Shown: piece by piece, positions 5,500 through 64,000 of the stretch
Numbering within the stretch: position 1 is the stretch's first letter
Layout of the letters: every line of letters starts with the position of its first letter
Assembly (NCBI GenBank): GCA_963402885.1
Contig: OY727093.1
Coordinates: 28,457,409 to 28,521,408 of the forward strand
Direction: 5' to 3'
Origin: Antedon bifida
Taxonomy: Eukaryota > Echinodermata > Crinoidea > Comatulida > Antedonidae
Length of the DNA stretch: 64,000 bases
Translations under genes and position numbers: made by a program
Notes under the pieces: model-generated
The model's database searches: none
Seen by the model: only the letters and a program-made list of their open reading frames with translations
Told to the model about the DNA's origin: nothing

Positions 5500-8301
5500 A
5501 TTTTTCGACAAAACTGGTTACAAACAAAAAATAGTACAGGGATTTTTTCCAAAAATGGCCAAATTTCGACCCTTTTTTCCCCGACAAAACTGGTTACAAA
5601 CACTCTATAAGATGATGGTAAGGCAATATATGCGCATATATAGCAATATTATCGCATAATAACTGAATTTTAAAAAGTCGATATTTTGGCAATTTTTGAA
5701 AAAATCCCTGTACTATAGTACAGGGATTTTTTCCAAAAATGGGCAAATTTCGACCCTTTTTTTTTCCGACAAAATTGGTTACAAACACTCTATAAGATGA
5801 TGGTAAGGCAATATATGCGCATATATAGCAATATTATCGCATAATAACTGAATTTTAAAAAGTCGATATTTTGGCAATTTTTGAAAAAATCCCTGTACTA
5901 TAGTACAGGGATTTTTTCCAAAAATGGGCAAATTTCGACCCTTTTTTTTTTCGACAAAACTGGTTACAAACACTCTATAAGATGATGGTAAGGCAATATA
6001 TGCGCATATATAGCAATATTATCGCATAATAACTGAATTTTAAAAAGTCGATATTTTGGCAATTTTTGAAAAAATCCCTGTACTATAGTACAGGGATTTT
6101 TTTCCAAAAATGGGCAAATTTCGACCCTTTTTTTTTTGACAAAACTGTGGTTACAAACACTCTATAAGATGATGGTAAGGCAATATATGCGCATATATAG
6201 CAATATTATCGTATAATAACTGAATTTTAAAAAGTCGATATTTTGGCAATTTTTGAAAAAATCCCTGTACTATAGTACAGGGATTTTTTAAAAAAATGGG
6301 CAAATTTCGATCCTTTTTTTTTTTCGACAAAACTGGTTACAAACACTCTATAAGATGATGGTAAGGCAATATATGCGCATATATAGCAATATTATCGCAT
6401 AATAACTGAATTTTAAAAAGTAGATATTTTGGTCATTTTTGAAAAAAATCCCTGTACTATAGTACAGTGATTTTTTTCCAAAAATGGGCAAATTTCGACC
6501 CTTTTTTTTTTCGACAAAACTGGTTACAAACCCTCTATAAGATGATGGTAAGGCAATATATGCGCATATATAGCAATATTATCGCATAATAACTGAATTT
6601 TAAAAAGTCGATATTTTGGCAATTTTTGAAAAAATCCCTGTACTATAGTACAGGGATTTTTTCAAAAAATGGGCAAATTTCGATCCTTTTTTTTTTTCGA
6701 CAAAACTGGTTACAAACACTCTATAAGATGATGGTAAGGCAATATATAGCAATATTATCGCATAATAACTGAATTTTAAAAAGTCGATATTTTGGTCATT
6801 TTTGACAAAAATCCCTGTACTATAGTACAGTGATTTTTTTCCAAAAAGGGGCAAATTTCGACCCTTTTTTTTTCTCGACAAAACTGGTTACAAACCCTCT
6901 ATAAGATGATGGTAAGGCAATATATGCGCATATATAGCAATATTATCGCATAATAACTGAATTTTAAAAAGTCGATATTTTGGCAATTTTTGAAAAAATC
7001 CCTTATAGTACAGGGATTTTTTCCAAAAATGGGCAAATTTCGACCCTTTTTTTTTTTCGACAAAACTGGTTACAAACACTCTATAAGATGATGGTAAGGC
7101 AATATATGCGCATATATAGCAATATTATCGCATAATAACTGAATTTTAAAAAGTCGATATTTTGGCAATTTTTGAAAAAATCCCTGTACTATAGTACAGG
7201 GATTTTTTCCAAAAATGGGCAAATTTCGACCCTTTTTTTTTTCGACAAAACTGGTTACAAACCCTCTATAAGATGATGGTAAGGCAATATATGCGCATAT
7301 ATAGCAATATTATCGCATAATAACTGAATTTTAAAAAGTCGATATTTTGGCAATTTTTGAAAAAATCCCTGTACCATAGTACAGGGATTTTTTCCAAAAA
7401 TGGGCAAATTTCGACCCTTTTTTTTTTCGACAAAACTGGTTACAAACACTCTATAAGATGATGGTAAGGCAATATATGCGCATATATAGCAATATTATCG
7501 CATAATAACTGAATTTTAAAAAGTCGATATTTTGGCAATTTTTAAAAAAATCCCTGTACTATAGTACACGGATTTTTTCCAAAAAGGGGCAAATTCCGAC
7601 CCTTTTTTTTCGCCAAAACTGGTTACAAACACTCTATAAGATGATGGTAAGGCAATATATGCGCATATATAGCAATATTATCGTATAATAACTGAATTTT
7701 AAAAAGTCGATATTTTGGCCATTTTTGAAAAAATCCCTGTACTATTATAGTACAGGGATTTTTTCCAAAAATGGGCAAATTTCGTCCCTTTTCTTTTTCG
7801 ACAAAACTGGTTATAAACACTCTATAAGATGATGGTAAGGCAATATATGCGCATATATAGCAATAATATCGCATAATAACTGAATTTTAAAAAGTCGATA
7901 TTTTGGCAATTTTTGAAAAAATCCCTGTACTATATAGTACAGGGATTTTTTCCAAAAATGGGCAAATTTCGTCCCTTTTCTTTTTCGACAAAACTGGTTA
8001 TAAACACTCTATAAGATGATATTAAGGCAATATATGCGCATATATAGCAATATGATCGCATAACTGAATTTTAAAAAGTCGATATTTTGGCAATTTTTGA
8101 AAAAATCCCTGTACTATATAGTACACGGATTTTTTCAAAAAATGGGCAAATTTCGTCCCTTTTCTTTTTCGACAAAACTGGTTATAAACACTCTATAAGA
8201 TGATATTAAGGCAATATATGCGCATATATAGCAATATGATCGCATAACTGAATTTTAAAAAGTTGATATTTTGGCAATTTTTGAAAAAATCCCTGTACTA
8301 A
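5500..8301. repeat. Palindromic satellite array, about fifteen units of 178-189 bp
   Basis: The word ACTCTATAAGATGAT recurs about every 186 bp (near 5607, 5794, 5980, 6169 and so on to 8197), 15 times. Each unit carries CCCTGTACTATAGTACAGGG inside a longer A/T palindrome (34 bp perfect in most units), then a pyrimidine tract, CGACAAAACTGGTTACAAAC, and the palindromic ATATGCGCATAT. Units are nearly identical in the middle; variants (ACCATAGTAC, ACTATATAGTAC) and a pyrimidine-tract change to CCCTTTTCTTTTTCG cluster at the right end. Repeated minus-strand ORFs of about 64 residues are by-products of the unit, not genes. The array separates the 3' ends of PON and NELL. Confidence 0.95.
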
Positions 8302-12800: not shown

Positions 12801-15800
12801 AATAATAGCTGAACACATACCTGTCTGGCATTGATCGCCAGTGTAGCCATCAGGACAAGTACACACACCAGGTGTATTACATCTACCTCCGTTCTCACAA
12901 CTTGGAGAGCACACAGCTGAAATGAGATCATCCTTTATTAGAACGACTGACTACAGTAATTGGATGATCCAAAGCTTTGTCTACACTATCAAACTTTATG
13001 TGATGTGCCCATATATGGACATGATGATGTCATATCACTACCATATTTGGGCATATCACTACCATATTTGGGCATATCACTATCATAATTATTTGGCCAC
13101 ATCACACTTGTTTTGTCAAACTAGTTTGATAGTGTAGAGAGAGCGTTAGATCATGGAGGTATAAAATAAAAAATAAGGGGGGCATCTTTAACAATTGTAC
13201 TGTACTCACACCTCCATTTCTTTCAATATTTAAATAATAATAATAATATATCAATCAATAATAAAATATTCATAGGAACAAAATGTGATGATGAAAATAT
13301 TAAAATATTGAATACCATTATGATGGTGTGTAGGCCTATATATTATAGTTTTTTATGTATATATTTGATTCATAATTCATTTTCCCTTGTGGGAATGCTA
13401 CCAATTCACTTCAGACAATATATAATCTCTATTGAGGGACACCTTTGGGCCCCAAACAAGTGTAGTAGGCCTAGGGTTCTCATCTGTAAAGTGGTTGGTA
13501 ATAGTGTTAAAACATATACTTCTTGCTCATTTCAAGGGAAAATGTCCCCTTAATAGGGGTGTCTTCTGAATAGGGGTGTCTTCTAAATAGGGGTGTCCCA
13601 CAGGAGAGGTTTTACTAGCGTAGCCTAGCTATGCAATCCTTTTTAGACCACATATTAATCATTGCTATGAATGATCCTTATTTGTAATAATACTGTTCCT
13701 AAAGCGTATTTCAATCCATACATCACACTTCAGTGGCGAATCAAGATACGGTAATCTTAGGCAAGCTTCTGATCTGTGTTATTCCATCTGCTCCTAACAG
13801 GGATTACACAACTGTTGGAATCAGGCTGAAGTCGATTCTGACATGTACGACCTACATTTAGTTGAATTATGTATTGTGTCTGCTGCCACCAATATTAGAT
13901 TAGTCTATTACCGACATTAAGCGAGTCTGACGAATGTATGACTTAAAAGTCTAGGTTCTATATGGTGATTCGGCCTAATATTGGTGGCACACATAGCGTT
14001 TCCAATGATATCCTAACAATTGTTTTCAGGGTAGAAATGATTACATTTTGGCAATGGTTTGTTTTCAAAAGGATGGCTATAAATGTAATGATATACCGTG
14101 ATCTGTACACTAGTTTACTTTCTTAAACTTAAAGTTGAAAATATGCTATGAAACACTACTATACTAATGTACATAATCACATATAAATGGAACTTAAAAT
14201 ACCATATTAAGGGAGGAGGATCACTTTCAGGGCCTAATAAAAAAGTGTCCCTTTATAGGGGTTTTCCCAGAATAAGGGGTTGCTGTATTTTAAAAACCTT
14301 TCCCCTTATTCTATTCACAGGAAAAACCTAAAAAAGTGGGTGTCTGCAAGGAGGGGTGTCTGCAAGGAGGGGTGTCTCCAAGAAGGAGTGTTACTTACGT
14401 AGGCAGATGATACCATCTCCTTCGTATCCGTCTTTGCATTCACACGTGTAGCTACCTACGGTGTTAGTGCATTTGCTGTTTCTACCACATGTGGTATCTA
14501 TCTTACATTCATTTATCTCTGAAATAAAACATTGACACATTAATGTTTGTTGGAGAAAGACACATGATACTGATAGAAGGTCATAGTGATAGAAGATAGT
14601 AGTTGAAGAAATGTAGACAAAATGGAAGCTCTAAAAATTACCAACTTCTAGTATAAGATATCAATGATGATTAAAACTGGGAATATGATTTTAATTCATA
14701 AAAAAGTATTCCAAAATTTAAATCATTTAGCAATGCCTTTATATACAATACACAGATATATTATAAGGAAAAATTCATAATATTGATTAATTTTGTTGTT
14801 GAATATGCCATAATAGTTATTCCCTTTGACCAAAAATTGAAAAAAACTGTAATTTAAAGCAAAAAATACAATGGGTTGAATTTAAAAGTTGAAAACATTT
14901 TTTGCGGAAATGATTTATTAAAATTACAAAATGGCTTATTCAAAATCTGATTTTATCGATCCTTATTTTTCATGTTTTTGGGGGACAATGCATATATAAT
15001 TGTATACATGAAAAATAATGTCTTATTTTATTATTTATTGAAAAAAAAAACTTCACTGTCATATTATCTTTTAATTATTAAAAAAAAAAGTTAATGTAAT
15101 GATGTGATATTTTTTTTGATCACAATTTTAACACCTGTATGCAAATTAACAACACTTACCTGAGCAGCTAAACAAATCTTCTCTTTCAAATCCTGGTAAG
15201 CACTGACAAACGTACGAGCCTACGGTATTGGCACAGGTGGCACCATCGTGGCAATGATTGCCGTATTCTCCTCCTACTGTCTTACATTCATCAATCTCCA
15301 TACATTCACCATCTTTTTCTTTAAATCCATCTTGACAGATGCATTCATGTCCAAAGTCCATGTTGTGGCAAACCTTGTCATTTGAGCATGTAGCTGTTGC
15401 GCAATAATCATGACCTACACAACAAATTTACATATTTGATTATTTACACCTGTATGGACATATTTATTCAAATAATATTCAAATTAGCAAATTTTTTCAT
15501 TTGAGCATGTAGATGTTGAGCAATAATCATGACCTACACAACAAATTTACATATTTGATTATTTACACCTGTGCGTAAATATATAATAATCAAATTAGCA
15601 AATCTTATTATTTGAGCACAGTAATACTACATAGCATATTTACATAATTTGATTATTATACACCTGTACGAACATATATTCAAATTAGCAATCTTATAAT
15701 TTAAGCATGTAGCTGTTGCGCAGTAATCATGACATGCACAACAAATTTACATATTTGATTATTTACACCTGTATGCAAATTGAACCTGTCATTATTCATA

Positions 15801-18800
15801 GCATATTTACATATTTGATTATTTTACCCCTGTATGGACATATGCAAATTAGCAAATCTTATAATTTAAGCATGCTGCAGTTACATAGTAAGTCATGACC
15901 TATTTACACAGATTTCCACCTGCATGGACATTTATTTAAATAATATTCAAATTAGAAAATCTTATCATTTGAGCATGTTGCTGTTGTGCAGTAATGACCA
16001 ACACAACAAATTTATATTGACAAAATGATAATCCAGTATTTTTTTGTTTTTTTGCGAGTCAGTTACAATCTTCAAATTTGTGCAAACTCTTAATGAATAA
16101 TCAAGCATGCATTCAACTAAACCATTCATCAATCAATCTATTTGTACATGATACAAATAAGCCTAATGTACACATACTCCCTATAGGCATAACACCTCAT
16201 ATGCCCCCTTATCTACTGTGCATATTGTATGTAAGAACATCACACCTAGTTCTCATAATTTGCATAGCCATTACAAATACTAAATCAAGGGATGATATTA
16301 TTACAGACCTCCCAACTTGGAAAAAATGAAATATCTGGAGGTTTGATTATGAAAGCATGGCCAAACTATAGAAGGCGGTATAAAATTATTAAATCAAACT
16401 GTAGAGGAAACCTTTATGATAAGAGAGATGACACAAAATATACTCCCGTGATTGCAAATAATGAATGTTTGCCTTGGCCCTGTGAAAATTACAATGATTA
16501 TTTATAAGTAGCATTAAGAATTAACAACTAAAAGTTGTACATAAAAATGGTAAGAAAATAACAATACCTCGACAATATGTACAACAGTCTGAATCTCTGT
16601 AGATAACATCTCCTTCATCACATGACACTTGCGGACAGGGTGTTTTGGTAGCAGCTGTCACCATGCTACCATCCTAGAGATTGAATGTCAGATTTGTTTA
16701 TGCATGATACCGAGAAATCAAATAATTAGTTTCCATGCTACCAAGCATGCTACAAAAGAAGTATTATATCCAGGTACCATGCTACGAGAAAGTAATATAA
16801 CCCAGGTACCATGCTACCAGTGTGAAATTATATCCAGGTACCATGCTACTAGAAGTATTATACCCAGGTACCATGCTACTAGAAGGATTATATCCAGGTA
16901 CCATGCTGCTAGAAGGATTATACCCAGGTACCATACTACTAGAAGGATTATACCCAGGTACCATGCTACTAGAAGGATTATACCCAGGTACCATGCTACT
17001 AGAAGGATTATACCCAGGTACCATGCTACTAGAGAAATATTATATCCAGGTACCATGCTACTAGAGAAATATTATATCCAGGTACCATGCTACTAAAAGG
17101 ATTATACCCAGGTACCATGCTACTAGAGAAGTATTATATCCAGGTACCATGCTACTAGATAAGTATTATATCCAGGTTAAAAAAAATTCCTTACCAAACA
17201 TTCCATTTCTATGCATCGTGTTCCTTTACGAGCCATTCTTTCCAAGTGATCATACTGACTTCCACCATATGTACAATAGGCTGCACTCGGAAAAACATTA
17301 GAGACCATGTCAGTAATAATTTAATAGTAATTTATTTGATTGTTTACACTACAAAACTAGTTTGAAAAACAAGTTTGCCCAAATATGGTAGTGCTATGCC
17401 CAAATATGGTAGGGACGTCATCATGTCCATATATGAGCACATCACATTTTTTTGTTACATAAAGTTTGATAGTGTAGACAGTGTTTTTAAACACTAGACT
17501 AAACATAATGTAGTTACTGTGTACTATATTTTGACAATGTCCTTATTTTTTTCGCTTATATTATCAGATTTTACTAAGCTATCGCGCATCAGACAGCTAG
17601 GATGACCAGGGTTTATAATAGACATTAATATGCCAACCTCAGTCATGTACTGTTTGATAGATAAAATAATTAGCAGGCTTATGGTAATTATTTGCATCAG
17701 TGATGCGTTCCCAGAGGTTACTGCATGTTAATAATATCGCGTAAGCGTGAACTATTCTTAGAACTGGAGCAGTAAAAGAAAAATTGTTTTCACCTCAGGT
17801 TTTATAATTATAACTGACAATTATATAGTAATGTGTTAAGGGTATTGGGACTTGATTGTAGTATTTCTTTGGATGTACGATTGTTGGGAACAAGAATGCT
17901 CGTTTAGCAAACCTATGTTTACAATTGGTCATAAAATTTCCTCATGCAGATGAAATTCTTTATTAATTCAGTACATCTATGAATGGAAAACTTTAGGTGG
18001 CTGTAGGAACGCAGTAAACAAAACACAATACTGTGACAATCATATTTGGAATATACCTTGTAAATTCTATACCATTATTACTTTTAATACAGCACATCTA
18101 TGAATGGAAAACTTTATGTGGCTGTAAGAATGCAGTAACCAAATCCAATACTATGACAATCTTTTGGGAGTATACAGTACCATTATTACTTTTATTGCTA
18201 TTTTATGCTATTTTATGATATTGTTAGCTTTTTATTAACATAAATATTTAGTAATATTTATTACAATAACTATTCGGATTCATTTATTCTAAAATGTTTT
18301 AGGACAATGTTTTTGATATGGCCGCCTGTTTTTACATATAGAGTAAAACTTTAAATCATATGATTATTACTTTTATTGCTATTTTATGATATTGTTAGCT
18401 TTTTATTAACATAAATATTTAGTTATATTTATTACTATAACTATTTGGATTCATTTATTATGTTTGAAAAAAACATTCTAAAATGTTTTAGGATAATGTT
18501 TTTGTTATGGCCGCCTGTTTTCACATATAAAACATTACATTGCTTATGTTTCCCACATGTGTATAATATAAAACATACAATTTGATTCTCAGTTTTCACA
18601 TTAGTCTTTTCTCTATGACTATACTCTGAAGAAACAGTCTGCTTCTTTATAGTAGTCAATAAAACCAAAGTATTTATGATGTTTTTATTAGGATAGTTGG
18701 ATATTGTTACAACAAACATCTTCTTGTTTAATGACATGCCGCTGCGGTCTCTCATTATCTCCAAATGATACTGATAAATGAAACAAAAAGCTCTTTTCAA

Positions 18801-21800
18801 ATTTCTTTGACAGGAGATTCTATTGTTCTATTTTACACAAGTTTTACTTTGTGTAATTGAAAATGTAACTTGACAGCGGTGTTCATAACAATGAATGCTT
18901 TGTTGATACAACAACAAATATAACTGTTGTAATTAATTGGCAAAGAGTTTGTTTAAAAGTTATGATTAAAAATTATATATTTTCGTTTTTTTTAAATTGT
19001 CATTGTATTGTTTTTTATTATTCTTTAGTACTGCTAAAGCTTGATTCCCACTTGGAGGCATGGAGTCCTCACTCAGAAAAAGAAAAAACGACATTAGAAA
19101 AAGTTCAAGCATGGGCAACCAAAATTATTCCTAACCTGAAAGACCTACCATACGAAACGCGGCTACAAAGATTAAGACTCACAACGCTTGAAGATAGAAG
19201 GAGAAGAGGTGACCTTATACAAACATACCGCATTATAACACAGAAAGATAAAACTGAGCCTACAAAAATGTTTAAGAAAGCCGAGTATGGAAAGACAAGA
19301 GGACACTCGTACAAATTGAGAAAAGAAAAACCAAATCTGGACAGTAGGAAATTCTTCTACAGCCAGCGTGTAGTGAATGACTGGAACAACTTACCACGAA
19401 GTGCAATATCTGCTCCAAACCTACTCTGCTTTAAAAACACATGGGTTTATAATGGGCCAAAAAGCCCCCTTAACCCTGCCACACTCTATCGAAAGAAGAT
19501 GGACTGTGGCGATTCAAGGTAAATTCAAGGTAAATTTAGGCGCAAAGAAAGTGAGTTGATGACTAATCATAAATGAGAATTTGGATTGTCCATTGTTTCA
19601 TGATTGGTCGTCCTTTTTGCATTGTATTCAACCTTACTGTATGAGTGACAATTCATTCATAATAGAAATAACCAGTTGGAATGTCATATTTTAAAAGAAA
19701 ATTAACACTGGGCTAGCAAATATAGCATTAAAAATTGATATAAAATAATGATATGACATATTATTATGAGGGTATATCTAACATTACTTGGAAACGGGCT
19801 GAACTTCTCATACTCTCAATTTTGTCTGTTGCCTATACTGACAATTACAGCTCACATCAAATGCATTATGCAGCTACTAAATAGGGTATGTGATTCCCCT
19901 GCATCATAACTCATGCTTTGTGACGGCCTTGAGAATAATGTCTCTACATCATAACAAATGTTTCTAGGCCATCATTCATATCAGAAATGAAGTTGATTGA
20001 TCGATACTATTTCAACATTTATGTTCGATGAGGAGCCCCATAAAGTGTGTTCACAATGTGATCGAAAAAATTATAGATTATTTGGTTGGGGAGGTATCTT
20101 CTAGTGAGGGAAGGGGAGGTGTCTTTTAGTGAGAGAAGGTAGGGGGGTGGGATGTGGAAAATGACCCTCATATTCTAATTATGCAACAATAGTATGATAC
20201 CCTTGATAATATTATGAACATATAGTAAGTATAGTATAAGTAGTATAAAGCCACTACTAAATATAATAATGATGATCAAATAAAGATCGACCGAAACATC
20301 GAACCATATGGCTTCCTTCTCGTTATTTGGAGTCAGTAATATACTATGTTATTTAAACATAATCAGTGCATTTATTGGTTTTTACTCAAGCTGCATCTTC
20401 TTTTTTCCCCATTCATTTCATATGCATCCAACAGCAAGTAACTCGCCAATTACAGGATGGATAAACTATTTTATAATCAATTATCATGCTTATAAGAGTT
20501 TCATTTGGGAGTTAAGTTGAAAAGAGTTGTGGAACTACGTCGAGGATTGAACAATGGAACTACGTCAAGGATTGAACAATGGAACTACGTCAGGATTGAA
20601 CCCTGGCCTTGGGATAAGAAAGCAAGCACATTAATGATAAACCCTTCCATCTAAATCCGCCATGCCACCTGCAGTATGGTACCCATGATACAATCATCAT
20701 TACATAACCTACTCCAGGTATGTCTTCTCTACATTCAGTACTATTGCAGAGAGAATCAATTTTTTGTATTAAAAAACGGTTTTCCAAATACCTTTACATA
20801 CGGGACAGCACTCGCCTTCCTCCTTTACTGGATTCTTACAGTTTGGAGCTGGACAGGTCATCGGACTACAGGATACTTTTCCTTCCTAAAATGGTAAATG
20901 GTATTAATAATTTTAATAATTTGTTTTAATAATTTAGGGACCATGTTAAAATTATTCTACTGCAGTAATGGCAGTACTACATTTTGTTTCTTTAACCTGT
21001 TTATCCTATCCTATTATTTATCAAGCTTCTTTTTGGTAATCATACAGTACACAGTGTACTGTTTATTGCAATGACTGTCTTATAAACGTCTACATTGAAT
21101 CAAATTAATCATACAATATTGTAGTGAAAAATGTAGTTTCTGCAGTACCTGCAGTAGAATAGTTTTAATACTTAACATTAGAATTGCAAATACCAAACAG
21201 CCTACAATTTTGTACATACGTACTATATAAAACCATTACATGTCTTATATTATTATATTTATTTTTATATTTCATTTTTGCATTTAATAGTTTATTAATG
21301 ATTCATTTATTTGTAATTAATTAACTCAATAAAATTACTTTATATAAACAAATTCACTTTCTTTCCAAGCTTTCACTTTTAAGTTTTAATTTACAGATTA
21401 TATATCTTACTGGAAGTAAATAAATTAATTAGTGACAGTGAATTGCATTCAAAGTCATAAAGTTTTCTTTTCGACCATGTTTTTCTTTTCTTTCCACTCT
21501 GTTCTTTGATATTTTTTATATCAATTGTAAAGGCCCCCAATGGAAATTATTCCTTCTTGTAAAGATTAATTGGGTCAGTGCCCAAATATGGTAGTGATAT
21601 TTCCAAATATGGTAGTGATATGACATCACCTTGTAAAGATTAATTGGGTCATCCTAAATCTATTGTTCTTTGTATTGTTTTTTTTGTATTGTTTATAGAT
21701 TCACTAAAAACAAATAAAACAATTGGTAGCTATAGAAATTAATTTAGAAGTAAACTCATCTTCTACCACCCCATCCCATCCCACCCTGTCTGAGAGAGCA

Positions 21801-24800: not shown

Positions 24801-27800
24801 CTACTGTAAAACTAAAATATATTCAATCTTCCATTTTTATAATTTTCTTTCCGGGGAGAATTGACATAAAGATTATTCTGTGTATTTTGTTTAAAATTAT
24901 ACAATCGAAATTTCAGAAAAGCAATATTCATGCTTTTTGCATTGCAAATTGGAATAAATAATATAGAATAAATAATATTTTATCATCAACATGTATTTCT
25001 TCCAACCTAATGTGTCTTTTGAACATGTTCAAACAATGCAATTAATTACCATATGATAGTTCTAGTTACATTATTTGTTTCAATATAAATTACAAGTTTC
25101 AATTTTAATCTTGTATATGTTTGCATCATAGAGCTAAGCAGACAAGAAGAATTCAGAGAAAGAATTCTCATGCAACTACGAATAATCAGTAATAATCAAG
25201 GGATTTACTATCTAATAAACAAACACATCTATCAACTTACGGTAAATCGTAGTTTAGATGGTCCCCTTTGACCCAGCCAGATGTTTAGGTTTTTATTACG
25301 TATATCTGTATCTGGAATGAGAATGCGTCTTTCCGCGACCTTTACACAGTTTACGTACAGAGTGACGTGAGAACCGCTCACGCTAACTGCAACCTTGTGC
25401 CATTGGTTGATTGCGAACTCTTGGTCGAAGCCTTCGTTGTAAATCTTGTTCTGATGCGTGTAGAAAAATGTAACTTCATTCGTTTTTGTGCTTATCATGA
25501 CCTCCAAGAATCTACACAAATGAAATTTTAAATGTACAACATTATATATAATTAACAATTAAATGTGTATATTTATAATAAAACAAATGCATATATAATA
25601 ACAAACACATTGTATAACGTTTTGTAAAGTATTATTGCTTGGAAATAGTATCAAAAATTGCTTCAGCCCTGGTCTCATCCTTTGCTTCAACCCCGGTCCC
25701 ATTCTTTGCTCCACCCCTGGTCCCATCTCTTGCTCCACCCCCGGTCCCATCCTTTGCTCCACCCCTGGTCCCATCTCTTGCTCCACCCCTGGTCCCACTA
25801 TTTGCCTCACCCCTGCTCCCATCCTTTGTTCCACCCCTGATCCCATCCATTGCTCCACCCCTGATCCCATCCTTTGTTCCACCTCTGATACCATCCTTTG
25901 CTCCATGAAAGATCTATCCATTTGCAAACAGATTTTATCCATTTTATTAGGTATTTCTCAAACTATAGAAGAATTAACATCACAATCCATAGACTGTAAC
26001 ATCATCGTCTAAGACCAGTGGCTCAGGGCAACCTAATTATATTATTTAAATAAACATTTCAACCACCTCAGTATCGACAAAAGTTTCAACTTGGAGCCTA
26101 TAATCAGGGATAAATATTTATATTGAGATGTGCATAGAAATTCTAATTCTCGTACAAACATAAAGCGAAAAAGACATAAACATTCATAGTGGCTGAAAAC
26201 GACATGACTTTCGGCTAGGAAGACACTCAACGAATCGATAGTTAAGTTGCACCTGTCAGATGGTATCTTCATAAGTATAATCACTTATCTTGTCAAATGT
26301 TTGAGCTTGACACATGCTCATAATAAAGGGTATTTAGCTATTTAGAAATACTGATGCAATAGAAGAGCCTCCAATAAAAAAAAAAGGAATTACGCTATTT
26401 TATTTATTTATTCAAGATCCAACAGCGTATCACCAATATAGGATCGCCACATAATTTAAAATTTGATTTACATAAAAATATATTAGGAAAACAACAGATT
26501 TATATATTATTTATGACATAAAAATGTCAATGTCGTAAGGAAAAATATGAACAAAATCATTATGATTGGGCAACCTGACAAAAACGTTTTACAACTTTTT
26601 GCATTTCTTATGTTTTCTTCCACTCGTGTAGGTCGTTGAAAGAAAGAAAAAAATGACAATTTAAAATTTAAAATGGCAGGCATTCGATACTCCAAAAATA
26701 ATAACATATAAATAAATAAAAATACTTTTTAAACTTTTTATCTTTTATGTTTTAAAGGAACAACACAATTTTTTAGTCCGAAAGGACCTATTAAGATGTA
26801 GAAAAATGAAAATAAAAAATTTAATAATATTAATTTTGCTATTTCGATATGAATTTTGAGACTACCTTTTGATAATGAGTTATTAAAAATCAAATTATAT
26901 CAGGTTTTGTAACACCTTGATATCCTTAGAGGTTTAAACGTTGTAAGGTTGAAGGCGATGATAGCAAAACGCACACAAGCAATAAAGCCTGAATAAAGCC
27001 GCGATTCTGTACTGTATGGTTGAACAGGAACGACAAGTACATTGATTAGGTACTGTACATTGTAACGACTCCGCGGGGAGTTGGTTAAATTGTCTAGATG
27101 CCCTTCTGACTAACTCAATTAATTTATAGATGACAAAAATGATGTTGCTTTAGCACTAGGGAAATTAAGATTGTAAAATAATGCTAAATGGCCTTTTCAC
27201 TTGATATAAAAATAATGTTTATTTTAGTAAAATATCAATGGATGCAAAATTAGTATCGCCATTAAATAGGTTTACTGCTTATTCTATAAATATGTCATAT
27301 TTCAATTTAACTATTCTTAATTATTTTTTGAGAATTAAGTGTTTAAAGTTCTTTATAATGCACTACCCATCCGAAGGACAACAACACAATGAGAGAAAAT
27401 CAATGGATAAGCAGATAGATCTCAACCCCAAGTCTCAAATATGCGAGCCATAATATCTCTCGCATGGATTTACGCTATACCACTCTCGTCTCAATTAGAT
27501 CAAAGGTAAATAAAATAAATACCAAGATTATAATAAGAAAACAAAAACAACTGTCTTTATAATATTACATAATTCAACTAATTTAAATTACTGTAATTAT
27601 AGATAGAAAAGCAAAACAAAAGTTGAAGTGAAAGCAAAAACAATTTTGAAATCTAAAGCTCTGTCTACACTATCAAACTTTATAAATAATAATAGTTCAT
27701 TCTTATATAGCGCATACAAGCAAGCTCTCTAAGCCCTGAACATTATTACCCCAGTCATTTTTTAGATCAAACACGTATGGAAACATACTCCCATAATGCA

Positions 27801-42800: not shown

Positions 42801-45800
42801 ACATACATTATTCAAATATGGCAGTGATCAATATTATTTTCCTGTTTTACTTCCAAATGTCTTTAATTCATATACTGTACCTTGACATTTCTATGTAAAT
42901 GCTCTTTTTTTGTCTGGATTTCTTTGAATTACGTCAACTTTAATTTTGTACAAAATGTTAATATTTTTATCCATCTCATAAAATATAGAAAAGCGTTTTG
43001 TAATCTTTGATTCATTCATTTCATATCGCGGAATATCTTTCTGAACATGACTTGTTTTTTCTTGATTCGTTTGAGGAAGATAAATGACTAGTGAGATTTA
43101 ATGTCTTTTATCGTTAGAGGAAAAGTAAATTATGAAAAATGAATTTCAAAGAAAAACATGAAAGCATTTTATAAATTGATAGCTATTTTGTTATCTCCTT
43201 ATAAATCTCATTATGTTTTCTGGTAAAAAGGAAAATTTACATGTTAGTATTTGAATGTGCATCATCCATCCAACCTAGAAGCACTTTAAACAAAATTTAT
43301 CAAAATGTTTACAAAAAGCTACGCATACGCTTCGTTAAAATGTGAGAAGACAATGCAAGAATGGCATGTGATACAAATCAAGCAATCAAATAGCAAGGAT
43401 ACACTATGTGTGTGTTATCATACTGTACCTTAGAATAAAACAATCATAATATTTTTAGCTTTACAATGGTAACAAGAACGTTTTTCAAATCACAATATAT
43501 AAATCGTAACAGTAAAATAAAAGTAAACCGCATACTATTTGAACGATGCTCGATACGATTATACGATTATGTTCTGTATGAAGAATGAGCACAGATTCAT
43601 AATCTGATATTAAACTGTTCTAAATATGAATTTTAGATTGAAACTGTGCATATAAGAAGGAATTACATTATTATATACTACAAGACTTAACAACTACTTT
43701 AGGTAAATCTCTACTTTCACAAACGGTCCAATATAACCAGAAATATCAACTTTTTTCTTCTATTATTCCACGCAATAATCTCTGATTTTGAAAGGTAATG
43801 TATATTCATGTATAGATTTACAATGAACAAACTCGAAAACCATAAGAAAATAAATCAGTATTTACTTCTATAATTTACCACTGTCGGCAATATGTCTTGT
43901 ACTGTCTTCAAAGTTTGTCTTTATGACGACTTAAAAATTAAGCTTTCTAAAATGTCATAGATGCTATTGCTCTTACTTTAAATGCCTAAATTTTCTTAGT
44001 ATAGAAATATTGAGGCCATTTTCAATACTTATATTACAAACTTCGAAGAAAGTGAGGTAAGTTTATATTGTGATTCTCTATTTCAAACTTTACACAGGCT
44101 TTATACTAAGACATTATTCTGATATTTGTGTATTTGATTTCTAATAATTATGATTGGTTCATTGTGCTTTTATTTTTATTACTTCTGATTGGTAAGATTG
44201 TACATCATATTAAAACTTGTATTTGTTACATATTAATATCATCATTATTTTGATATCTTGAATTAAATTGATACTTGATACTTACAATACATTTTATTCC
44301 TCAAGATGAAAAAAAAAATCTGCTTTGAACTATAACCTTATAATACATTTTCATACAAACTTTTCAACTGGGGGGAAAAAATGTGTTTTTTTTAACTGTC
44401 TTTCCTTTTTTTTTTTTCAATCTTGATTATATTTTATAACTGAGTATCTTCTTAACCTCCACTTCTGTATATCATTCAATTAATAAAAAAATAAATAAAG
44501 AGGCTTCCAAACGTACAGTAATAATATATATATATATGTCAATGTTTTTACTTACTTTTTATTTCCAGCAGTGATGGAAAATAGAGTTCCTTTACTTTGA
44601 TACTTTATTCAAGATGAAATAAAATCTGCTTTGAACTATACCATCAAAATATACTTTCATACAAACTTTTCAACCGGGGAAAAAAATGTGTTTTTCTTAA
44701 CTATTTTTCCTTTTGTTTTTTTCCATTGTTGATTATATTTTATAACCGAGTATCTTCTTAACCTCCACTTCTGCATATCATTCAATTAATCAAAAAAATA
44801 AATAAAGAGGCTTCCGAGGGTACAGTAATAATATATATATATGTCAATGTTTTTACTTACTTTTTATTTCCAGCCGTGATGGAAAAGAGAGTTCCTTTAC
44901 TCCTTGCTGTTTGTATGAAGCTGCCCATTATTGTATATTCCTTGGCATCCAGTAGAAGCTGTTGAGCTTTCTCAAAATCTGCAGTGCTAACATTCAACTC
45001 CCTTTTTCTGTCACCTTCTGCAAAATGAGAATGATTCAAAATGTTATTAAAGTGCAAAAAAAAAAGAACTTTCTCCATAACATTTTCGGAAAGAAAAATG
45101 TTACAAAAATAATTTTGAAAACTCTCTTTTCTGGTCACCTTCTGCAAAATGATAAGAATGATTCAATCTTTTATTAAAGCACAAAAAAGAACTTTCTCCA
45201 TCACATTTTTGAAAAGAAAATGCTACAAAACGCAAATTTTGACACAAAAGTTCCAACAAAATGAGCAACCCATCTTGGAAGAAAGTACATTTTGGCCAAT
45301 TTTAGTTATAAAAATACCAAAATTTAAGTTTGAAAAATTTGCAGATCAAAGTCTACCATATAGCTTGGTAATTGTTGAGCAACTAATCTTTCAAACATTA
45401 CTGTTGGAGAAAACATACCTAGATAAGAAACTATGAAAAATCTACAAGTAAATTTAGTTTTCTAGGGTGAATTCTGAACCCTAAAATATATTGGCAAGAC
45501 ATTTATATTATTTATTTGTTATTTTCACCATAATTTCAAGAGAGTGACCCTACCAGTCTGAGTTGTTATAAATAGCTAGCATTTATGATGGGAGATTTGA
45601 GGAATGAGAGGACAGGTGTTTTTGAAAAGACATTATTTTACTAATAAACAAACAAGTGGGAATGTTTTTTTAGTAATATTTAAAATATAGAATAAATTTA
45701 ATAGTAGATACATGGATTATGAAACAAGTGTATCCAATCATGCAACACTTTTTAGATTATTTATTTTAGATTATAAAAGGATCCCATCAGAAATAAGCTA

Positions 45801-48800
45801 TCCTGGAAAATCATTCATAAATGTATATTTGTAATATCAAGTTTAATTTTATCTGTATTTTTAAAAATGATTTTCCTAATAAATTAAAATCAAATCAAAC
45901 AAATTTAATTAATGCATTATAAAAATGTTTTTTATGTGTTCACTGTCAATAATTTTAGAGCAACTTTTTTTTGCAATAGATTATAATAAAATTGTTTGCA
46001 AATAGAGCATTCCTATGCTTCGGTTTGGTTTTTCTTTTTTGTCCTTTTTTGGAGTAATTTTTTTCATTTTATATTTAGTGCTTTGGTTTCACATTTAATA
46101 AAATGCCATATAAATTCAAGGTATTATTCATTTATAAGCCATATAATGGATTTTTTTAAATAAAATGATAAATTTTCATAATCTATAATACTACAATATC
46201 AAATCTTCAAATATTCATATTTATTTTATTTTAAATTTTATAGCTGAGGAGTGACATCTTCAAAGAACGTAATTTATTTTTAAAGAAAAAAATAATTTAC
46301 AGCAATAATAACACTTCATTTCTGCAAGCATTGATTCTTGTTTGAAACAAATTTTTCTGAAAAATAATTTTCACATTTCTAATTTCTTTTAGACTCAATC
46401 AGTTGGCGAGTCGTTCCAAAAATCTGCCAGAAAAGTTATGAGTTAAAAAAAACCCATGACAAATCACCATACTCCAAACTTGTGGTTAACACGACTATAA
46501 ATTATTATTATTTAAGGATATATTTCAAAATAAATAGTTTGCTTTTGGCAAAATAACAGAGAACCTTAGATCATAAATAACATTTATGTAAAGAGGAATC
46601 ATATTCCAATATATATTCAGCTAACTTGGATTAAAATTTCTTCAAACTTAACAGAAGTCATTAAATTCATTTTTTGTATTGATGCATTTGGTTTTCAACT
46701 TTATAATTTTCAAAAGTCTGAATATTTAGAAGTATGTCTCAGAACCACCAGCGACTGTAGAAATTAGTTCACAATAAAAAGGTAGATGATTTTAAGGAAT
46801 GAGGTCAAATTATTCTAATGCAATAATGTATATACTAATAATGCAGTAATTACACTTATATTATATATTATTTTATTTTGTTTCAATGTACACGTTAACA
46901 AGGCAATCACTTCAATATAAAACAATGAGTTTGTTGCCACAAAAAACAAAACAATTGTATAATCATTCCTTTAATGTAAATTACTTTATTATTAGTTGTC
47001 ATTATTTTTATTATTATATATTGTTATGTTCTCTACTGATCCACTTTGGAAATCAATGTTTTAGCGTCATTCAGTATAAAGACATAATAATAATAATAAT
47101 AGTCTGGTTCACAATAAAGCCATTGCCTATACAGTAAGTATACTAAGGTAACATGGTTCACATTGAAGTGCGTTTTAAAAGTTAAAAAATGTTGATGCAA
47201 AATTCAATGAAATTACCTCTTCATTTTCACAAGGAGAGGTATGCTGGCCCAATGGTATATTACTGGATCTGTTTTGTATCTCTGAACACTGTTAATGTAG
47301 TTTAACCAATGACATTTGTTTATAGAATTATGTATTTAAAAGCTCTGTCTACACTATCAAATTTTATGTGACAAAAAAATGTGATGTGCCCATATATGGA
47401 CGTGATGATGTCATATCACTATCATATTTGGGTACACTTTTTTTGTCAAACTAGTTTAATAGTGCATACAGCACAGAGCTTTAGGCTATCATTAACTTGA
47501 TAAAAGCAATCAGGTGGTACAGTATTGTGTACCATGCATTTGGATGCTTCACTAGTGAAAATGTTCCCTGCTTAGGATAATTAAAAACATTTTAAATATA
47601 GTTCAAATCTTGTCTTATTTCTTATTTAATCACATTTTTAATGAGTAAAAGTGCAATGAACACAATACAGAGCATGCTTGAACAAATAGCTTCTTATAAT
47701 ATTGGCTATTGATTACTTACCTTCAAACAGCAGAGCAGGCTCTTTGCTGTTTGTGCCAGGCACCTGAAGGGTATCTCTTAGATTCAATAGTACAGATTCG
47801 ATCAAATCAACCTCAAGCCTTGAGTCAATACCAAAACCATATCCTGAAAATAGAGCAAAGAATTATTATAATATTTTCATTCATTCAATTGTCATTGGAA
47901 TTAGACAAAAAGTGATAGGCCCCATCCAATTGTGATAATCAATGCACTCGAATGCACATTCAGTTTTCTGTAAACATTTTGAGAATTTTTGCCATGCGAC
48001 GTGACTGATCGCATTCGAAAATAACTACAACTATAACTGTTCTACTCCACGTTCAAAGTTGGAGCACTACCTTTTTTTAAAGGCCTAGCTTCTCGGCCTA
48101 GCATTTATCAATGATTTACAATGGATAACTTAAATAAAACTATGTGTGTGATATAAAACAAATAATGAATGTTCTGTATTCGTTGAATGGAGAGAATATT
48201 TAATTCGATGAAAAATTCTCATGAAATATTCTCACCATACAACTCATAAACTTCATTATTTAAATAATATTTTTAAACACAGTCAAACTAATGTGGAACA
48301 AGTGACTGTCATTAACTTCTTATCGGCTTTAATACGGATGATTGTAATGATATCACATCTCTATTGTATATGTATGCAATATACAGTACAAACTTCTTCT
48401 CATTAATTTAACAATATTCTGCAATCATAGCAACGATCCAGGTCTTTAATAATACACACTTAGAAACCATCCAGGGACCACAAAACAAATTTTACAGCTA
48501 TGAATTTGCAATTAACTGTGAGCAGAGTTAAAACATTTCCATAGCAACAGATGTGGGGATTATTAAGAAAAATGATATTACAAATGTAATTACGATTCCG
48601 AACAATTCACAATAGATACATTTAATTGCCAGAGAATCTCTAAACATTTATTGTTCACATACATGAATAGTCTCTCTCTATCTTATATCACCAATTAAAA
48701 ATATCAATTATGGACTTGTATCAGTATAATTATGTACTTTAGTTTTATTAGGAGCATTACAGAATATTTTACTGTCCAACTGTGTATTTTTGAAATGTCA

Positions 48801-51800
48801 CAATAATTTTCAAGCATATCAAATATATTTTTCTTTGAAATAACAATTTCATTTTTTATAATTATTAATGATAATAGTTAAGATGATTACTTTTACTTAT
48901 GCCTATTATTATCATTATTATTACAGTATTTCTTTACTCTTATTTTTTTTAATTTGAGACAAAAAAATAAATTTATATGGAGGTTTCTGCTACAATGCGG
49001 ATATAAGGAATCAGACAAAAACAAAGATATATTGTAGTGGTATATATCACTTTCATTTTCTATTTATTTAATTTTCTTAATACAAACAGCAACACATAGC
49101 TTGATTGGGCCAAGGAGTGGCTTACTGTATGTTGCTGCCGATTAGGCGTGCCAAGAATCAAAATGTAATAATGGTATATAATGAAAATACAGTTAAACTC
49201 TACAGAAAAACTATACATTATTTTTGTTTATTTATGCCTATCATCATCATTATTACAGTATTTCTTTATTCTTATACATAAATACTACTTATTTTAATTT
49301 TACACAATAAAATAAATGTATGTTTTAGCTGCTACAATGTGTGTATAAGGAAGCAGACAAAAACAAAGATATACTGTAGTGGTATATACCACTTTCATTT
49401 TCTATTTATTTACACAAACAAACAGCAACACATAGCTTGATTGGGCGAAGGAGTGGCAAAAGAGGCCGACAGCTTACTGTATGTTGCCGCCGATTAGGCG
49501 TACCAAGACTCAAAATGCAATCGTATATAAATGATAATACAGTTTAAACTCTACAGAAAAACTATAATAGGTTTAATATAATTTCCAAACTGATTCTAAA
49601 TTGGCATTCTTTTGAATCAACTTACAAACACAGTTAGGAGCAGAAGACAAGCATTGCAATTATATCTCACAGACTGAGATCTAATTTGATTTGTTTCACT
49701 GCCAAATTTAAATTGGCAAATCTTTACAAATGAACTTAAGTCAACCAACACGAAAAAAAAAAACAATAGTATTAAAGAAATGGAAGAAACATTCTAATCA
49801 TACTAGACTATAGGTCTGATTCAATTTCCAAGCTGACATTCTAATGAAATTGGCAAATTACACAAATGAACAAGTACTACAGTACTATAGGTCTAATTAA
49901 ATTTAAAGTTGAATTCTAATGTCATTGGCAAAAAATCTAATAAACCTAGTAAACCAGGTTAGAAAATATAATGATTATTTAATTGGTTACAAATCCCTTT
50001 ATTTGTATTTTATAACATTTTTATAACAATCTGAATGTTATGCCTTTTGGATGGATGTTTTTAGTGTTTTGTATTTGTCTTCTTGTTTTATTTGCTTCCA
50101 AGCTGTGACCTGGGGTGTTTGTTACATTCTTCTGTTTTTATATAGAAATAAAGGATGATTTTACTACAGTACACGGCAGAAATTGCACTTTATTTCACAA
50201 AAGTAGTACAGTACTGTCGTACTATGTTTATGTAATCTTACTGTACTTTCCTTATTAAATTGAGCACATGACGATGAAAAGATGGTTAATATTTTACTAA
50301 CTCTCAAAATTTCACATAAATGAAAATAATTCCATGACACTAAAGATAATATTTTGAATACCATATAATCTTGCTGAATAAAATCTGAATAAAATCTTAA
50401 TAGAATCGCATAAAGATCTGTGCATATACACATCTTTTAATTTGGCTCATCCATTGGTATTTTTTTTGTGTGGAAAAAATCTTACCTAGATCAAGATCAG
50501 ATTCAAATTTTATAGCTGCCCTATGTACCGGTTAGCCAAATGTATGTATGAGACGAGGGCCTCATTCTAGCCTATTTGATAGCACAGTGAGCCTATGTAA
50601 TTAATTATTTAATTTTACGCGTACCTTGGGTTAACGAACTATAAATACACAGACATCAGGGCAACATAAAATAAATGGAAAATCAATAATTCTATGTTAT
50701 CAAGGAAGTACATAGGTGTGTTCAATAAATTATGATTACAAACTATCTATTCTAAAATAGATATAATACAGTCATGTAGCCACAAGAAATAAAGTGGTAC
50801 GGTTTTTCGCAAGAAAAGGGTTGAACAATCTCTGTTCAAGCCACAGAGTTGTCAAAGACCTCTGTGAAAAAAGCAGTCAGGTTGAAACCTTACTGGTGGC
50901 TACGGCCCTGTAATATACTGTTAGGCTTTATTGTACATTCGCACGTTTCTCCATTTTGTTTGAAAAAAGAATAGCCTTGGAACAATCTTTGCATGTGGAA
51001 CGCTGATAAATTCAGACTAATGTCAATACTGAATTTTACAACCAAGGAGTGACAGGGCAACATAAAATAAATGGAAAATCAATAATTCTATGTTATCAAG
51101 GAAGTACATAGGTGTGTTCAATAAATTATGATTACAAACTATCTATTCTAAAATAGATATAATACAGTGATGTAGCCACAAGAAATAAAGTGGTGCGGTT
51201 TTTTGCAAGAAAAGGGTTGAACAATCTCTGTTCAAGCCACAGAGTTGTCAAAGACCTCTGTGAAAAAAGCAGGTTGAAACCTTACTGGTGGCTGTAATAT
51301 ACTGTTAGTCTTTTGTACATTCACACGTTTCTCCTTTGTTTGAGAAAAGAACAACCTGGCAACAATCTTTGCATGTGGAACGCTGATAAATTCAGACTAA
51401 TGTCAATACTGAATTTTACAGCCAAGGAGTGGCAATTAAATACCTAGGTACACAACACATCCGTTTAGAAAATTACTTTACAACGCCATCTTACAGTTTA
51501 CATTTGATAAATGTCGTGGGTACATATCCGTTAGTTAGATTACTTCACAACACTGTAAACCACTAATAATCAAATTATACATAATTATTTGAGTTGTCAA
51601 TAGCAACCACAGGTTTTGCGTTATTCTGACCTTGGCGTGATCTTCAGGGGAAAGAAACTTAATCCAGTAACTGCTAAATGAGGATTGATTTTGGCGGGGT
51701 TACTTAGGGCAAGCTTCTTAATTGCGTCTTTCAATTAATGCATGTCAGTTTTAGTAGAGCGAGATGTGTGTGTTACTTTAGTATAATGTAAACACAAGAT

Positions 51801-62815: not shown

Positions 62816-63382
62816 TTATAGAGTAAGTGCATCTTCCTTTTCTAAATTGTTAAGGTTATCTACCTTTAACTGTTCAAAATCTCCTGGCTTATTTGCTGTT
62901 ATTGCTTCAAAATCTTCCGGCCCCTTTGCTCCTATTGGTTCAAAATCATTTGCTCCCTTCACTCCTATTGGTTCAAAATCTTCCGGCCTCTTCACTCTTA
63001 TCAGTTCATAATCTTCCAGGCTGTCTGATTTTCTTAATGGTTCAAATTTCTGCGAAAATTCTTGACCTCGATAAAATGCGTCCAAATTGAATGTTTTAAA
63101 CAGAATACTTTCGTGAGGTTGTTCCAAACCGCCCTCAAACAGAATTGCAAAGTTCTGTGTCATTTTTCCTGTAAATGGATCGGTGTCTTCAAAATATGTC
63201 AGATCCGAGTATGAACTCTTTAAGTTGTATACCATCCATCCTGGACTCCATGTTTCCCCGCCGTCGTGGCTTAATTTCACGGTCATGTAATCACGGAACT
63301 TTCTTGATGCAGGATTCGAGAATAATAACCAACGCTTTCTTGGATGATTCGGATCTGGACTTGGGAATGCTATAACACTTCC
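62816..63382 (-). CDS. Sialidase terminal exon
   Basis: Acceptor ATTTCCAG at the right edge; 188 codons to the TAA at 62818-62816. It holds the Asp-box, the nucleophile Tyr motif and the repeated tail DFEPIGVKGAN / DFEPIGAKGPE / DFEAITANKPG. The apparent ATG upstream (63394) lies in the intron and is not the start. Confidence 0.92.
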   Translation of the reverse strand, partial: GSVIAFPSPDPNHPRKRWLLFSNPASRKFRDYMTVKLSHDGGETWSPGWMVYNLKSSYSDLTYFEDTDPFTGKMTQNFAILFEGGLEQPHESILFKTFNLDAFYRGQEFSQKFEPLRKSDSLEDYELIRVKRPEDFEPIGVKGANDFEPIGAKGPEDFEAITANKPGDFEQLKVDNLNNLEKEDALTL

Positions 63383-64000
63383 CTGGAAATGCAAGAAAAA
63401 AATTTATAATCTATTTCTTTTTCATTTTTATTTCCGATGTTTTTAACACACCTGAGTAGATTCTTGTTATTTGATTAGAGGATTTTTGGGTCACATTGTG
63501 GGTCACTACTCCATTGAACCTCTTACGTCAAGACTGAAATTGTTTTAATATATACAAGTGCAAATGTAAATTTTGTACTATCCAAAAAATCCATGTACCA
63601 CTAATTTTAAATGTGACAATAAGGTATTTATTTACAGTACTACCTTTGTCAAAAAAAAATGGTCCTGGGTGTAGTGTAAAATACCCAGTTGAAAATATGA
63701 AAATCAGAGAATAACCTATGAATATTCATTAATGGCCACAATGACATCTATTTACTAAGAATAGGATGTCTCTGTATATAGGCATATCCATTGAATTAAA
63801 ATTCTCTTGATTTGTTCATTGGCTACAATAGTAATTGCACAATAAATTGTTCATTGGCTACAATAGTAATTGCACAATAAATGTGTTGGTAACCATATAG
63901 TTTACTGTCCAAAAAGTGGCCCTACATTTGAGGCTACTTTACCTGGCAACCTGCTGCCTTTGATGGTATTGTATAAAAATCATCAACAATTTTAAAGCCA
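62816..64000 (-). CDS. Sialidase (neuraminidase, NEU/GH33-like), 3' end of gene
   Basis: Exoglycosidase that removes terminal sialic acids. Two exons are in the window (63943-64000 and beyond; 62816-63382), joined in phase 0 across a GT-AG intron to read AAGCQGSVIAFP, a hallmark of animal and bacterial sialidases. The last exon contains RKRWLLFSNPASRKFRDY (region of the third arginine of the triad), an Asp-box SHDGGETWS, and SSYSDLTYF, whose Tyr matches the catalytic nucleophile in the AYSDLQ of human NEU2. FAILFEGG (NEU2: GCLYEAN) follows. After the domain ends (FNLDAFYRG) comes an unusual acidic tail of five 11-residue repeats. The N-terminal part with the first catalytic residues lies outside the window, so family assignment within NEU1-4 is open. 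Confidence 0.9.
63383..63942 (-). other. Last sialidase intron
   Basis: 560 nt. It contains a 38-bp near-exact direct repeat around TTCATTGGCTACAATAGTAA (63818 and 63851) and a TCCAAAAAATCCATGTAC word that also occurs at the satellite relic near 4.94 kb. Confidence 0.5.
63943..64000 (-). CDS. Sialidase penultimate exon (partial)
   Basis: Donor GTAAAG at 63942-63937. The frame reads FKIVDDFYTIPSKAAGCQ and runs off the right edge. It joins the terminal exon in phase 0 to complete the GCQGS motif. Confidence 0.85.

Follow-up and report, generated by a model that had tools for sequence, protein, structure and literature searches.

Tandem duplications copying the splice sites of a NELL exon in Antedon bifida

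Exon 3 of a NELL-like gene is bordered on both sides by tandem duplications, each of which copies one of its splice sites into the adjoining intron. This locus raises the question whether the copied sites may compete with the real ones, and whether the arrangement reflects something particular to this exon or the ordinary turnover of tandem duplications.

The NELL gene and the duplications at exon 3

The window, i.e., the whole stretch of DNA analyzed, comprises 64 kb (C1:28457409-28521408) of an assembly of 315.6 Mb in 27 contigs. Its minus strand carries a NELL-like gene, located by collinear tblastn matches to an approximate human NELL1 sequence. Fourteen collinear exons with GT-AG borders were set by eye (relevant features in Table 1). 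Missing from the model are the first exon, anything past exon 15 and, as the phases of exons 7 and 8 do not meet, one or more exons between these two. The label "exon 3" follows the numbering of a sequence-only reading of this DNA; the first exon was not found. Exons 2-7, when joined, matched NELL2 in the PDB (E 8.5e-67, residues 4-309) and were assigned Laminin_G and VWC domains by Pfam, while EGF_CA and VWC domains were assigned to joined exons 8-15. Based on the predicted order of an N-terminal LamG followed by VWC and EGF domains, along with the sequence match, the gene is classified as NELL (NEL-like).

Exon 3 is found between introns of 2,703 and 19,349 nt. It had been proposed to encode part of the LamG domain, and it does sit at the start of that domain, since it corresponds to approximately residues 41-92 of the joined NELL protein and Laminin_G_2 (Pfam) covers residues 76-189. 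When exon 3 was searched alone against Pfam, no match was returned.

Other coding sequences were also noted in the window. A sialidase-like (BNR) exon with a 33-bp coding tandem repeat is located at 62816-63403 on the minus strand. The best of its 16 PDB matches are bacterial-type sialidases, with a designed protein in the top row; Sialidase-1 and -2, which we take to be animal-type, are also among the matches and score lower than the bacterial-type ones. On the plus strand, an open frame of 217 aa (18869-19522) had no Pfam match, and by eye it resembles the final part of a non-LTR retrotransposon protein.

Table 1. Coordinates of the NELL exons discussed and of the duplicated units within the 64-kb window.
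Feature	Position	Strand	Basis or remark
NELL exon 2	47721..47843	-	tblastn with approximate NELL1, splice borders and frame
124-bp unit, upstream copy in intron 2, with decoy acceptor	45120..45242	-	
Decoy acceptor (...cattttgcag copied)	45139..45161	-	implied exon start 45141; score 9.9 vs. real 12.1
124-bp unit at the exon: real acceptor and 5' end of exon 3 (22 nt)	44996..45118	-	
NELL exon 3, 157 nt, phase 1 to 2	44861..45017	-	tblastn; GT-AG borders; frame continuous with exons 2 and 4
305-bp unit at the exon: 3' end of exon 3 (41 nt), real donor, adjoining intron	44609..44901	-	
305-bp unit, second copy in intron 3: exon-tail copy and decoy donor	44301..44596	-	weaker match on to ~44272
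Decoy donor AAA / gtaagtaa, identical to real donor	44548..44558	-	exon end would be 44556
NELL exon 4 (LamG)	25241..25511	-	tblastn, splice borders, Pfam
Decayed array of exon 9 acceptor region	15368..16017	-	spacings ~90-120 and their sums
NELL exon 9 (EGF), acceptor also tandemly copied	15160..15414	-	tblastn, splice borders, Pfam, BLAST repeat

The presence of tandem duplications on both sides of exon 3 that copy its splice sites, as originally reported, was confirmed by BLAST and alignment. In the order of transcription, the acceptor-region copy is followed by the real acceptor region with exon 3, the real donor region and the donor-region copy, so that the decoy acceptor lies within intron 2 and the decoy donor within intron 3. 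The copies of the 305-bp pair are spaced 12 nt apart and differ at 22 of 291 aligned bases over their core (7.6%; BLAST E 9e-109); in a global alignment the match runs on, gapped, to about 44272. Those of the 124-bp pair are 1 nt apart and differ at 13 of 117 aligned bases (11.1%; BLAST E 4e-24). Two details of the original description had to be adjusted: the donor is indeed copied, along with 41 nt of the exon's end by alignment rather than about 43 nt, and the duplication of the acceptor and the 5' end of the exon, given as 125 bp reaching 45230, ends at 45242. Tandem Repeats Finder listed the 124-bp pair, while the 305-bp pair was absent from its output. The units are unlike in length and divergence, which makes two separate events, as had been suggested, the simplest account.

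The copied exon tail carries two differences in 41 nt, both of which appear to be synonymous by our own reading of the frame. Within the 305-bp pair, the first 80 aligned positions (with exon tail and donor) show 2 differences, compared with 20 in the remaining 223 (P 0.076 by Fisher's test, 0.04 by permutation), but P rises to 0.49 when any 80-base stretch is considered. A dispersed element was considered and judged unlikely: when the 305-bp unit was searched against the genome, these two places were the only ones reported among the best candidates scored, which speaks against dispersal. The whole 935-bp stretch likewise matched one place in the genome among the best candidates scored, and the search with the 124-bp unit alone covered the 64-kb window. 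There was no Rfam match at the gathering threshold in the window that would point to a structured RNA. Adjacent direct copies of a unit that appears to be non-dispersed characterize both pairs as intragenic tandem duplications.

Strength of the copied sites and consequences of their use

Splice sites were scored with a weight matrix built from the other 13 placed exons of NELL, and given so few sites the scores are rough. The original description of decoy donor and acceptor sites is supported by this scoring: both are intact and score the same as, or close to, the real sites. The decoy and real donors are identical and both score 7.0, while the scores of the decoy and real acceptors (Table 1) become 10.0 and 12.1 when exon 9 is also omitted from the matrix. 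For comparison, leave-one-out scores of the real NELL sites range from -3.1 to 12.1 for acceptors and from 0.7 to 13.3 for donors, and by this measure 13 of the 14 real acceptors fall below the exon 3 decoy acceptor. Strong decoy splice sites are commonplace in the NELL gene span: over its 37.7 kb, the decoy scores are equalled or exceeded at 30 unannotated donors and 7 unannotated acceptors, counts that include the decoys themselves and may include sites of unplaced exons.

It had also been proposed that the decoys could give rise to exon extension or to a pseudo-exon. The former is possible, and a premature stop was found in all three extended forms of exon 3 that were translated. Extension from the decoy acceptor adds 124 nt, shifts the frame and yields an exon of 281 nt, with a stop 13 codons past the junction with exon 2. 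Reading through the real donor toward the decoy donor meets a stop at once, and the form extended at both ends stops at the first of the two stops. As the form of exon 9 extended to its own acceptor copy (see below) contains a stop as well, none of the four translated forms gave an in-frame protein. Regarding a pseudo-exon, the available partner sites are poor relative to the decoys. The best acceptor-like AG between the real and the decoy donor scores 3.4 and is located at 44589, just 34 nt from the decoy donor, while the best donor-like GT between the decoy and the real acceptor scores 1.3. A pseudo-exon using either decoy thus seems unlikely, and we do not put it more strongly because, with each real site left out of the matrix in turn, the acceptor-like partner still outscores 6 of 14 real acceptors and the donor-like one 1 of 14 real donors.

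Mutually exclusive or duplicated exons arise by tandem copying inside a gene. The NELL case shares this in-gene copying, but just 41 or 22 nt of exon 3 were copied, each with one splice site, and for this reason no complete second exon of the mutually exclusive kind is present; the copies are exon ends alone.

Exon 9 and the tandem-repeat background

Exon 3 had been singled out, and its special standing is weakened by two observations: the acceptor of exon 9 is copied too, and tandem repeats are common in the window. The exon 9 array was cut by hand into seven segments. The nearest copy, which would place the exon start at 15533, 119 nt upstream of the real one (15414), is identical to the real acceptor over 20 intron and 14 exon bases, and the two have an equal, modest score of 2.1 with exon 9 out of the matrix. 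In the five farther segments the AG is lost in two, the region is lost in one and the AG is kept near its expected place in two; the latter (15626 and 15899) have poor surroundings and score -7.3 and -2.9. The state of these farther copies fits the pattern that neutral decay would be expected to leave.

Contiguous tandem-repeat loci were counted when their period, or a multiple of it, was 60-600 nt, a definition that takes in some short-unit arrays. The window contains 17 such loci vs. 11 in 100 kb sampled as 10 stretches elsewhere in the genome, at round coordinates on five long contigs; this corresponds to a density about 2.4-fold higher in the window (two-sided P 0.03). Extrapolation from 1.1 loci per 10 kb gives about 35,000 loci that should be expected genome-wide, and hence exons clipped on both sides may well arise elsewhere by chance. 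The divergence of the three splice-site duplications (7.6, 11.1, and 11.3%) falls inside the range of 2.9-12.2% of seven other two-copy duplications that cover no mapped NELL splice site. The least diverged of the 10 duplications measured (50657-51434; unit of ~396 bp, 2.9% substitutions) lies upstream of NELL exon 2. The window also contains a satellite-like array at 5531-8300 (185-bp unit, 15 copies, 94% matches), as well as a 21-bp unit, CATATCACTACCATATTTGGG, with variants, in short runs at 2459, 13031, 21582, 22348, 28033, 34333 and other positions in both orientations. A 31-base pattern derived from this 21-bp repeat had no matches in viral contigs.

We also asked how often duplications would cover splice sites by chance. 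Among eight in-gene loci with a unit of at least 60 nt, a list from which three arrays of 17-30-bp units were omitted, three copy a splice site vs. 0.69 expected at random (P 0.025, post hoc). Other lists gave P 0.013 (6 loci) and P 0.045 (13 loci, whole window), also post hoc, and random placements hit two ends of one exon in 0.8% (gene span) or 1.4% (window) of cases, again in a post hoc test. A local copy is present for 3 of the 28 splice sites and for 174 of 1500 random intron positions, i.e., there is no excess at splice sites, though the latter background is overstated, as every copy of an intronic repeat was counted. Finally, in 10 partial kinase exons, hand-picked from 139 matches and with unmapped edges, no contiguous repeat extended over the matched exon core; three of the 10 loci have repeats elsewhere, and in one a dispersed repeat stops 32 nt short of the core.

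Origin of the decoys and their significance

The reading that we prefer, and to which we would give a probability of roughly 0.8, is ordinary tandem-duplication turnover in a repeat-rich region, with the inner sites favored by exon definition and the decoys mostly silent. It builds on what is seen directly: the duplications themselves, their intact splice sites, the frames of the extended forms and the high density of tandem repeats. Two unremarkable tandem duplications within the gene, of ~305 and ~124 bp, would have chanced to span both ends of exon 3. Since the intact body of the exon is joined to only one copy in each case, the other copy of each site is left in the intron as a decoy. The long introns on both sides make exon definition the most likely mode of recognition, which would favor the inner pair of sites bounding the 157-nt exon, and in transcripts with the exon extended to either decoy, the premature stop would probably lead to degradation. 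We infer both that the inner sites prevail in the cell and that neither decoy has a function. Speaking against this reading are the excess of duplications over splice sites and the double hit at one exon, both from post hoc tests, the few differences in the exon-tail and donor part of the 305-bp pair, the upstream acceptor preference discussed below and the repeat-free cores of the kinase exons. The arrangement is real and slightly unusual, its cause is probably ordinary, and the analysis turned up no evidence that the decoys function. Tandem duplications of similar size are frequent in Drosophila; in 15 lines 1,901 mostly tandem duplications with a median of 367 nt were described, of which 624 included some exonic sequence (Emerson et al., cited through PMC2891723), and in the same genus small duplications are reported to originate frequently and to be eliminated rapidly (PMC6380325).

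What is known about competing sites supports the expectation for the donor more clearly than for the acceptor. When flanking introns are long, the sites nearest each other across the exon are favored, according to PMC9225289; together with the equal strength of the two donors this points to the inner donor, and the decoy donor is expected to be mostly silent. According to the same paper, of two 3' splice sites at least 20 nt apart the upstream one is preferred, although significantly less so in exons with long introns (PMC9225289). The exon 3 decoy acceptor may therefore see some use. In globin substrates with a duplicated acceptor, splicing was very inefficient and used the distal site only, as found in PMC5389562.

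A regulatory role as an unproductive-splicing switch merits consideration, in which a share of the transcripts would be spliced to the decoy acceptor and, with exon 3 at 281 nt, be degraded, lowering NELL output. The decoy acceptor is intact, nearly as strong as the real one and above almost all other NELL acceptors, the preference for upstream 3' sites (PMC9225289) would act in its favor, its product has an early stop, and exon 9 repeats the pattern with an identical acceptor copy and again a stop. On the other hand, there is no sign of selection on the decoy, the divergence of its duplication resembles that of the others, and the farther exon 9 copies are degraded; such a switch is thus unlikely. 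That the duplicated acceptors before exons 3 and 9 are both used and jointly set NELL output by unproductive splicing would be more improbable still.

Another suggestion would be that splice-site regions attract tandem duplications, whether because mutation is biased toward them or because selection retains the copies as back-ups for splicing. The excess of splice-site-copying duplications within the gene agrees with it, but this test was post hoc and concerned one gene with 28 sites, random intron positions had local copies about as often (an overstated background, as mentioned), and the kinase exon cores were free of tandem repeats, so we regard such an attraction as very improbable. Heterozygous genomes are prone to false duplication in assembly, and two haplotypes could, for example, have been joined in tandem at this locus. 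The two units are, however, unlike in length and divergence and contain indels, exon 9 has a multi-copy decayed array, other stretches of the genome hold similar repeats, the assembly has contigs of more than 30 Mb and the region matched one place among the best candidates scored; an artifact of this type appears extremely improbable. Ordinary turnover of tandem duplications remains the best explanation for the decoys.

Among the matches listed in literature searches on duplicated or decoy splice sites none was about a NELL gene, and the matches for NELL with intron, tandem duplication and splice were unrelated by title. Similarities to described systems do exist. Partial-exon duplication and intron gain or sliding, as outlined for Drosophila (PMC2891723) and for a potato RdRp gene (PMC4974935), also involve a copied border that could provide one more splice site of the same type; unlike the cases outlined there, the NELL copies sit in existing introns and extension to them means a stop. 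The closest experimental counterpart is the cis-competition substrates of Reed and Maniatis (1986), in which, as presented in PMC9225289 and PMC5389562, a duplicated acceptor or donor with little exon rivals the full site. Those substrates were constructs, whereas the NELL case is a natural arrangement, known from sequence alone.

The NELL gene thus provides a clean natural example of how exon-clipping tandem duplications leave intact decoys behind while the mapped exons still read as NELL. Gene predictors could wrongly extend exons 3 and 9 at such sites. Both exons represent natural competitions between near-identical splice sites and, if both decoy acceptors are used, near-equal sites could be compared that differ mainly in the length of the exon behind them.
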